From: Treponema brennaborense
GTDB taxonomy: Bacteria; Spirochaetota; Spirochaetia; Treponematales; Treponemataceae
Assembly: GCA_023666275.1 (NCBI GenBank)
Contig: JAMPCJ010000008.1
Location: forward strand, 62,001-126,000
Length of the DNA stretch: 64,000 nucleotides
Direction: 5' to 3'
The notes under the pieces are model-generated. The model made no database searches. It worked only from the letters and a program-made list of their open reading frames with translations, and was not told the DNA's origin. Numbering within the stretch: position 1 is the stretch's first letter; every line of letters begins with the position of its first letter. The position numbers and the translations under genes are program-made. This document shows positions 36,230 through 52,820 of this stretch, piece by piece.

Positions 36230-36285
36230 CTTCGTGATGAAAGGGCTTGCAGCATCGTGATGAGAGAGTTCGTAACATCGTGATG
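36230..36285. repeat. Three copies of CATCGTGATG at 23-bp period
   Basis: Short palindromic decamers at 36230-36239 (CTTCGTGATG), 36253-36262 and 36276-36285, each starting exactly 23 bp after the previous. CATC and GATG are complementary arms. The remainder of 36105-36229 holds a GGCGCGC/GCGCGCC hairpin (36119-36137) and nothing else I can name. Confidence 0.6.
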
Positions 36286-36306
36286 TTTAAAGGTATCTCA
36301 TCGCGG

Positions 36307-36481
36307 CCGTTAGGGATACTAACGGAGTGCGCCCGTTAGCATCATTAACGGCGCATGTCTGTTAATACCATTAACGGTGCGTTCTGTTAGCCTCCCTAAC
36401 GGAACGGCTTTGTTAAGGAGCTTAACGGAGCGGCTTTGTTGGGGATACTGTCGGTGCGCGTTCCGTCAGCTTCATTAACGG
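36307..36481. repeat. Array of seven 19-bp palindromes upstream of trp
   Basis: Seven units of CCGTTA-N7-TAACGG type at 36307, 36333, 36359, 36384, 36410, 36436 and 36463 (spacing 26, 26, 25, 26, 26, 27). Arms are conserved, with mainly C-to-T changes in the left arm that keep G-U pairing, while the 7-nt loops differ (two are GGGATAC). The array ends 59 bp before the -35 box of the trp promoter. Confidence 0.85.
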
Positions 36482-36540: not shown

Positions 36541-36570
36541 TTGACAGAATTATTGTTTCTATTGTATAGT
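36541..36570 (+). promoter_or_regulatory. Promoter of the trp operon
   Basis: TTGACA (36541-36546), 18 bp, TATAGT (36565-36570). Predicted start near 36577 leaves a leader of about 110 nt before trpGD. Confidence 0.75.
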
Positions 36571-36687: not shown

Positions 36688-38286
36688 ATGATTCTTGTTA
36701 TCGATAATTACGATTCGTTTACGTATAATGTTGTGCAGTCGCTGGCAAAAAGCACGCAGGAAGAAATTCGCGTTGTGCGCAGCCGCGAAACCACAATCGA
36801 TGAATTGCAGGCAATGAATCCGACGAGGCTGATTATTTCTCCGGGACCCGGACGCCCCGAAGACGCCGGCGTTTCCGTCGAAGCCGTCCGCTGTTTTGCG
36901 GGAAAAATACCGATTCTCGGCGTATGTCTCGGACATCAGGCAATCGGCAGCGCGTTCGGTGCGCGCATTGTGCAGGCAAAATACATAAAGCACGGCATCG
37001 CCGAAAAAATTGCGCTGGACGGCCGCGGTTTATTCCGCACTGTCGGCAACAGCGGAACATTTACGCGCTATCACAGCCTTGTTGTCGACGAGCAGACGCT
37101 TCCGCCGGAGTTTGAAGTAACGGCGCGCGCGGAAGACGGCGATATTATGGGCATCCGCCATAAAACGATGATTATCGAAGGCGTGCAGTTTCATCCGGAA
37201 TCAATCGCTTCCGAAAGCGCGGAAAAGTTTTTCGCAGCATTTCTCAATTACCGCCGTGAACCGTTCGCGGTAACAGCGGCATTGAACCGCTTGTGCCGCG
37301 GCGAAAATCTCGATCGTGCCACAGCCGAATTATTTATGGAAGATTTGACCGACGGCTGCCTTGACGAACGGCATACCGCGGCGATTCTTACGGCGCTGGC
37401 GGTGAAAAAGCCTGCCGCGGAAGAAATTGCCGGATGCGCGGCGGTTCTGTGCCGAAAAAAAACACCGCTTCCCGTATCGGGCGCGGAGCTTACCGATATT
37501 GTCGGCACGGGCGGCGACGGCAAAGGCAGCTTTAATATCAGTTCGCTTGCGGCGCTGACAGCCGCGTCATGCGGGCTTCCGGTAGCAAAACACGGCAACC
37601 GTGCGGTTTCGAGCAAAAGCGGCGCCGCAGATTTTTACGAAGCGCTCGGCGTGCAGATTGAGCTTTCGCCCGAAAAATCCGCGGAACTTGTGCGGCAGAC
37701 GAATTTCTGCTTTTTGTATGCGCCGCTGTATCACAGTGCCATGCGCTATGCGGGGCCCGTCCGCAAAGCACTGGGCATTAAGACAATCATGAATCTTATC
37801 GGTCCGCTGTCGAATCCGGCGGGCGCCGCCTATCAAATGCTGGGCGTGTATGACGCGTCGCTGCTGAAGCCCGTGGCGCGCGCTTCGAAAATGCTCGGCT
37901 CAAAGCGGGTTATGGTCGTTGCAAGCGAAGACGGCTTTGACGAAATATCGCCGTGTGCGCCGACAGATGTTTTCGAAATAGACGAAAACGGGAATGAAAA
38001 AGAATACCGCATAACGCCGCAGGATTTCGGCATTGCGAATTGCGCAGCGGAAGAACTTGCGGGCGGCACAAATGTTCAAAATGCGGAACTTGCCCGCGCG
38101 CTGCTTGACGGAAAAGGCAGCGATGCATTGAAATACGCTGTTGCGCTGAATGCCGGCGCGGCATTGTATATCGGCGGCAAATCTTCGTCGATACGGGACG
38201 GATTTAAAGCCGCGCTCGCCGCGCTTGCCGACGGCACCGCCGCCGCGGAACTGGAGAAAATCAGGACGTGCTCCCATGCAGCATAA
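36688..38286 (+). CDS. trpGD: Fused anthranilate synthase glutaminase / anthranilate phosphoribosyltransferase
   Basis: 532 residues from ATG 36688 behind CAGGAGG; in-frame codons upstream extend into the palindrome array and are not coding. Residues 1-190 are a class I glutamine amidotransferase with Cys80 (GVCLGHQ) and His169/Glu171 (FHPES). Residues about 200-532 are TrpD, with the PRPP loop GTGGDGKGSFN (about 272) and KHGNRAVSSKSGAAD. TrpD converts anthranilate to phosphoribosyl-anthranilate. The glutaminase half needs TrpE as partner, yet no trpE lies here. The same G-D fusion is found in enteric bacteria. Confidence 0.93.
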   Translation: MILVIDNYDSFTYNVVQSLAKSTQEEIRVVRSRETTIDELQAMNPTRLIISPGPGRPEDAGVSVEAVRCFAGKIPILGVCLGHQAIGSAFGARIVQAKYIKHGIAEKIALDGRGLFRTVGNSGTFTRYHSLVVDEQTLPPEFEVTARAEDGDIMGIRHKTMIIEGVQFHPESIASESAEKFFAAFLNYRREPFAVTAALNRLCRGENLDRATAELFMEDLTDGCLDERHTAAILTALAVKKPAAEEIAGCAAVLCRKKTPLPVSGAELTDIVGTGGDGKGSFNISSLAALTAASCGLPVAKHGNRAVSSKSGAADFYEALGVQIELSPEKSAELVRQTNFCFLYAPLYHSAMRYAGPVRKALGIKTIMNLIGPLSNPAGAAYQMLGVYDASLLKPVARASKMLGSKRVMVVASEDGFDEISPCAPTDVFEIDENGNEKEYRITPQDFGIANCAAEELAGGTNVQNAELARALLDGKGSDALKYAVALNAGAALYIGGKSSSIRDGFKAALAALADGTAAAELEKIRTCSHAA

Positions 38287-52560: not shown

Positions 52561-52655
52561 TTGTTAGTTACTAACAAACATCTTGTCAGCTGCTAACAAG
52601 CGGCTTGTCAGTTACTAACAAGTGATTTGTTAGTAGCTGATGAACTTCTTGTCAG
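52561..52655. repeat. Array of 17-bp palindromes at exact 22-bp period
   Basis: Units TTGTTAG-N3-CTAACAA at 52561, 52583, 52605 and 52627 (last right arm degenerate) and a half unit at 52649. The period is exactly 22 bp throughout; a degenerate CTACAAG at 52550 may be an earlier half unit. It lies 85 bp upstream of the MMPL -35 box. Confidence 0.85.
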
Positions 52656-52820
52656 CGCGGAAACGAACGGTTTTTTGCGGAAAGATTAGTCTGTTTTGCT
52701 GCTTCTGCTTCCTCTTCAAAAAAAATTGCGTTTTTTGCTGAGCTTTTTCCATGACAAATTCTTGCTCATTTTCGGAACAACTCTTTTACGGAGCGTTACA
52801 AGGAAGCAGTGTTCGAGCCG

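Follow-up and report, generated by a model that had tools for sequence, protein, structure and literature searches.

A probable composite palindrome repeat dispersed between genes in a Treponema genome, with one copy beside the trp operon

Introduction

The OR and OL operators of phage lambda consist of 17-bp palindromes arranged in tandem. In mycobacteriophages, repressor sites known as stoperators are dispersed over the genome (PMC9283540). REP/BIME elements are dispersed intergenic palindromes which occur in clusters, exist in species-specific variants and carry a GTAG or CGTC tag at one end of the palindrome (PMC2817692, PMC3733652). Neisserial intergenic mosaic elements (NIMEs) combine dRS3 repeats, 20-bp palindromes of the form ATTCCC-N8-GGGAAT present in about 700 copies, with RS repeats of 30-160 bp (PMC3898611). 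Pneumococcal BOX elements, finally, are intergenic as well and are built as boxA-boxB(n)-boxC, their length varying with the number of units (PMC3049150).

Here, an array of seven short palindromes next to the trp operon of a Treponema genome (2.35 Mb in 18 contigs) was followed up, starting from a 64-kb window, i.e., the whole stretch of DNA that was analysed. The original prediction had offered three readings of this array, namely a multi-operator, a chain of RNA hairpins or a self-expanding palindrome satellite. Our analysis indicates that positions 36230-36481 probably represent a single copy of a modular repeat which is non-coding, lies dispersed between genes and is composed of a head and a variable tail of 19-bp palindromes.

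The array, its head module and the trp operon

Between positions 36307 and 36481, seven 19-bp palindromes follow each other at steps of 25-27 bp (26, 26, 25, 26, 26 and 27; Table 1). The reality of this array was confirmed, as all units were found again and a generic detector, requiring at least three similar palindromes at steps of 20-30 bp, reported exactly two arrays in the window, this one and another at about 52562, whereas six dinucleotide-preserving shuffles of the window yielded no array. The consensus of the units is YYGTTAR-N5-YTAACGG, to which a 7-5-7 symmetry fits slightly better than a 6-7-6 symmetry. Conservation is centred on 8-bp half-sites, TYYGTTAG, which alternate in orientation at a pitch of about 13 bp with about five variable bases on either side, and it reaches the linker side of the half-site, where a T precedes CCGTTA in 25 of 30 cases. 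A CRISPR array would consist of near-identical direct repeats of about 23-50 bp and unique spacers of similar length; with inverted half-sites of 8 bp and variable gaps of about 5 bp as its conserved and variable parts, the array, as described before, qualifies neither as a CRISPR nor as a simple tandem repeat.

Table 1 Features of the element and its trp-side surroundings (positions within the window)
Feature	Position	Strand	Description
Head module	36230..36306 (approx.)	+	CATCRYGATG-type motifs about 24 bp apart, TTTAAAGGTATCTC spacer; abuts unit 1
Palindrome unit 1	36307..36325	+	CCGTTAG-GGATA-CTAACGG
Palindrome unit 2	36333..36351	+	CCGTTAG-CATCA-TTAACGG
Palindrome unit 3	36359..36377	+	CTGTTAA-TACCA-TTAACGG; loop also in the L003 array
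Palindrome unit 4	36384..36402	+	CTGTTAG-CCTCC-CTAACGG
Palindrome unit 5	36410..36428	+	TTGTTAA-GGAGC-TTAACGG; loop recurs in L003 and in L055 (another species)
Palindrome unit 6	36436..36454	+	TTGTTGG-GGATA-CTGTCGG (TTGTTGGGGATACTGTCGG); degenerate
Palindrome unit 7	36463..36481	+	CCGTCAG-CTTCA-TTAACGG; loop recurs in the final units of L001 and L002
Sigma-70-type promoter of the trp operon	36541..36570	+	outside the element; TTGACA-18-TATAGT, 11/12; -35 TTGACA at 36541-36546, spacer 18 bp, -10 TATAGT at 36565-36570
trpGD-like gene	36688..38286	+	neighbour; PF00117, PF02885, PF00591

The palindromes form the tail of a longer element. A head module, in which CATCRYGATG motifs recur at intervals of about 24 bp and are separated by TTTAAAGG-type spacers, precedes every array of the trp-side type in the genome and does so always on the same side. 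Since this module belongs to the repeated element, the extent of 36307-36481 given in the original prediction holds for the tail but leaves out the head, and the full repeated element in the window spans head and tail. At two other loci (L003, L005) the head motifs make up a long near-perfect palindrome, and in the remnant copy (L009) the head is degraded.

Downstream of the array lie a terminator-like sequence and the trp promoter, and the reported placement of the array upstream of this promoter is correct. The first trp gene encodes a glutamine amidotransferase together with an anthranilate phosphoribosyltransferase, its GATase and glycosyl-transferase-3 domains identifying it as trpGD. That the array stops 59 bp upstream of the -35 box of a near-consensus promoter speaks for a regulatory array dedicated to the trp operon. 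However, the same element recurs at eight other loci with unrelated neighbours, one of them lying between converging genes, and upon searching 70 relatives, a trpG-like match was obtained in 24 besides the window's genome, none of which carried an array within 900 bases upstream of it. The proposed multi-operator for trp finds no support in these results and a dedicated trp array is very improbable; the trp operon is probably a bystander, on whose promoter any effect would be local and incidental. The locus thus cautions against taking such an array as trp regulation.

Further copies in the same genome

The search for further arrays of the same geometry, suggested as a check of the array, was positive. 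Pattern, BLAST and covariance-model searches, applied to the genome plus targeted stretches, agreed on eight loci with at least three units and one remnant, all situated between genes. The single-unit pattern gave 24 and 21 matches versus 1 and 3 for a reversed-pattern control, and the two-unit pattern gave 21 matches on each strand versus 0; two single matches (C13:59409, C14:127425) lie inside genes and were taken as chance. Unit number varies from 2 to 7 between loci, adding up to about 39 units in the genome. The copies adjoin a tRNA gene, a secG-like gene, lipoprotein genes, transporters and regulators, and they are found between co-directional, divergent and convergent gene pairs alike. 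At L001, L002 and L006, arrays lie on the 3' side of lipoprotein genes which are paralogous and have near-identical signal sequences, and because of this relationship, these copies may have been duplicated or spread together with the adjoining genes.

Several loops recur between loci above the expectation for 5-mers (TCCTA four times, GGATA and CTTCA three times each, TACCA and GGAGC twice each). Neighbouring units are apparently neither direct nor inverted copies of each other, as adjacent loops are no more alike than shuffled ones, be it in direct comparison (p 0.41) or after reverse complementation of one of the two (p 0.72). Since the loci share arms and loops while differing in unit number, the element has probably been copied around and changes its length. 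Copies would spread either through a transposase acting in trans or through recombination, and arrays could lengthen or shorten via unequal exchange or slippage. Of the three earlier readings, the palindrome satellite comes closest: copies are dispersed and have units in common, whose number varies, although the self-expansion it invoked was not directly observed. No transposase linked to the element, no empty site or target duplication and no terminal inverted repeats, the mark of a MITE, were recognised; for L057, the flanking genes were not found in the sister species in which an empty site was sought. Mobilisation as a RAYT-dependent REP was rejected, as the RAYT transposase family (Y1_Tnp, PF01797) was not found in the window's genome and among nine genomes exceeded the cut-off in G330 only. 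These negative results, the possible joint spread of L001, L002 and L006 with lipoprotein genes and a total of about nine copies, low for a classic REP-like family, count against reading the element as a dispersed composite repeat.

The array at 52561-52665 of the window is of another type, consisting of four to five 17-bp units (TTGTTAGTNACTAACAA) repeated every 22 bp. This second, independent type (family B) recurs at five more loci (L132-L136), most of the copies resembling each other at their start (CTACAAG) and end (CTTGTCAGC). Hence, the genome holds two families of palindrome arrays with related half-sites and different pitch.

Occurrence in related species

Within the bacterial family, arrays whose arms are identical or similar were found in G241, G330, G188, G242, G193, G035, G020 and G061, and composites of head and array occur in several other species, apparently including a Treponema sp. 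MAG (G188). Head modules of the form GGAGAGACCTTTAAACA accompany the arrays of relatives, and related modules (GAGAGACCTTTAAACA) are present in other species; head modules were also found in G024, G240, G288 and G077, the last three having no recognisable tail. Two related species retain the element at the same locus (L058 and L061), where near-identical gene leaders adjoin and the sequence beyond the element is wholly different, an edge which is a possible recombination boundary. Many further single matches to a three-half-site pattern in other genomes may be due to chance, since the control pattern matched more than a dozen genomes, too. One match in G158 (L059) lies inside a gene and was likewise taken as chance, while two matches in viral contigs turned out to be an in-frame repeat of a collagen-like protein and are unrelated; TrpGD relatives were not found in viral contigs.

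In G188 and G330 (L077, L083, L084) as well as in G193 (L069), the element lies upstream of genes with a long poly-G tract near their start, which in G188 and G330 are of lipoprotein type, and a truncated copy of such a gene is present at L082. This suggests phase-variable genes with which the element was jointly duplicated. At L078 (G187), L092 and L099 (G269) and L098 (G188), the arrays differ in their arms and in their period, which is about 23-28 bp or, as a composite, about 46 bp. Palindrome arrays may therefore be common and fast-changing in this bacterial family.

DNA or RNA

In the 39 units of this genome, C>T changes in the left arm outnumber G>A changes in the right arm by 27 to 4, an asymmetry which a symmetric protein site does not explain and which therefore counts against the composite-repeat reading as well. 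The left-arm bias preserving U-G pairs, described earlier for the window's array, thus stands in this genome (31 changes keeping such pairs versus 10), and a replication-strand mutation bias was rejected as its cause, as the asymmetry tracks the element whichever sign the GC skew has. Such a bias favours a transcribed array of RNA hairpins read from head to tail, for instance a UTR element, sRNA or sponge, and so do the terminator-like sequence behind the array and the folding of both strands far better than shuffles (z -6.3 for the plus and -5.9 for the minus strand). The excess, however, is confined to the outer two positions of the arm, positions 4-6 being nearly even with 4 changes of U-G type and 6 of A-C type, and no bias is seen in other species (3 left C>T and 6 right G>A changes). 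Covariation or compensatory changes between the arms did not exceed those of shuffles, pairing at position 7 showed no excess, and the minimum-energy fold of the plus strand contains two long hairpins joining different units instead of a chain of unit hairpins. Moreover, the copies at L002 and L006 are antisense to both neighbours, the family B palindromes are nearly loopless and hence ill-suited to RNA hairpins, and the element has no Rfam match, so that a known RNA was rejected and, with covariation lacking too, nothing marks it as a member of a structured RNA family. The chain of RNA hairpins put forward originally is therefore weakly supported, and a transcribed hairpin array of any kind appears distinctly unlikely.

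With covariation lacking, the bias being local, the folds departing from a chain of units and conservation following the half-sites, it can be proposed with modest confidence that the palindromes matter as double-stranded DNA. They may serve as repeated inverted sites for a putative dimeric protein which binds or recombines DNA. In family B, the innermost pair, impossible in an RNA hairpin, covaries weakly (p 0.01; 0.04 without the end units).

Regulator genes beside the arrays

Genes matching Cro/C1-type helix-turn-helix (HTH) models make up 8 of 53 genes adjoining arrays of all types in several species and 1 of 133 non-adjacent controls (Fisher p ~2e-4), a post hoc comparison in which the enrichment had been noticed before it was tested, most controls stem from a single genome and ribosomal operons are present among the controls. 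The enrichment is thus a lead and not a result. The genes concerned lie beside L004, L005, L056, L057, L072, L073, L099 and L132; an ImmA/IrrE peptidase gene is found next to the regulator at L005 and L057, and another one beside the array at L018.

Because of this enrichment, a multi-operator serving something other than trp is a candidate. Dimers of a Cro/C1-type (XRE) repressor would occupy the palindromes, one on each, with cooperative binding along the array, and the dispersed arrays would serve as decoys or else silence or insulate transcription nearby. Two-fold palindromes of 17-19 bp at distances of 22-26 bp do have a geometry resembling that of the lambda operators, and the peptidase genes accompanying some regulators point the same way. 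Conversely, the XRE proteins beside arrays are diverse, with only two clear orthologues (L057 and L099), the array lies on the 3' side of half of the regulator genes, and the asymmetry between left and right arms described above is left without an explanation. Dimer binding and its proposed effects, taken together, are for these reasons considered unlikely. A more specific version would see dispersed Treponema-family arrays resembling phage operators, with palindromes of 17-19 bp at a fixed pitch of 22 or 26 bp, each family being read by a fast-diverging Cro/C1-type regulator. Such a regulator would control or insulate many loci scattered over the chromosome, and array length would act as the dial; as a whole, this proposal is unlikely. 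If true, two operator-array families of different pitch would coexist in this genome, and a real link to Cro/C1-type regulators would point to operator arrays which extend chromosome-wide and resemble passive repeats.

Comparison with known repeats

The preferred reading remains that of a composite repeat built of intergenic palindromes, similar in kind to BIME, NIME and BOX elements. It would represent a new repeat family, since at least one defining feature each of NIME/dRS3 and of REP/BIME elements is absent and a literature search for repeats of such kind in Treponema returned nothing relevant. This repeat family would span several species and genera within a single bacterial family, combining fast sequence turnover with conserved geometry, and could be useful for asking how palindromic repeats of this small size originate, disperse and grow longer when no transposase is linked to them.

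With lambda operators and stoperators, the arrays share the repetition of short, here putative, repressor sites; stoperators, in contrast, are asymmetric sites in phage genomes, whereas the arrays are located on a bacterial chromosome. Like REP/BIME elements, they are dispersed and clustered intergenic palindromes, but neither GTAG nor CGTC accompanies the YYGTTAR-N5-YTAACGG units, no RAYT (PF01797) was found in the window's genome, and a regular pitch and a separate head module are added. The likeness to NIME/dRS3 lies in a very short palindrome, of 20 bp in dRS3 and 19 bp here, whose 6-bp arms are conserved around a variable middle, and in the joining of palindromes with a second type of repeat into intergenic mosaics, here as head and tail and with different spacing. 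However, the arms are YYGTTA and TAACGG around N7 instead of ATTCCC-N8-GGGAAT, about 39 units compare with about 700 copies, and the pitch of 26 bp is strict. To BOX there is no known sequence similarity, the units here being 19-bp palindromes, of which two to seven follow a single end module, a second one not having been seen; a partial likeness lies in the intergenic position and in the pairing of a fixed end module with internal units whose number varies and sets the length of the element.
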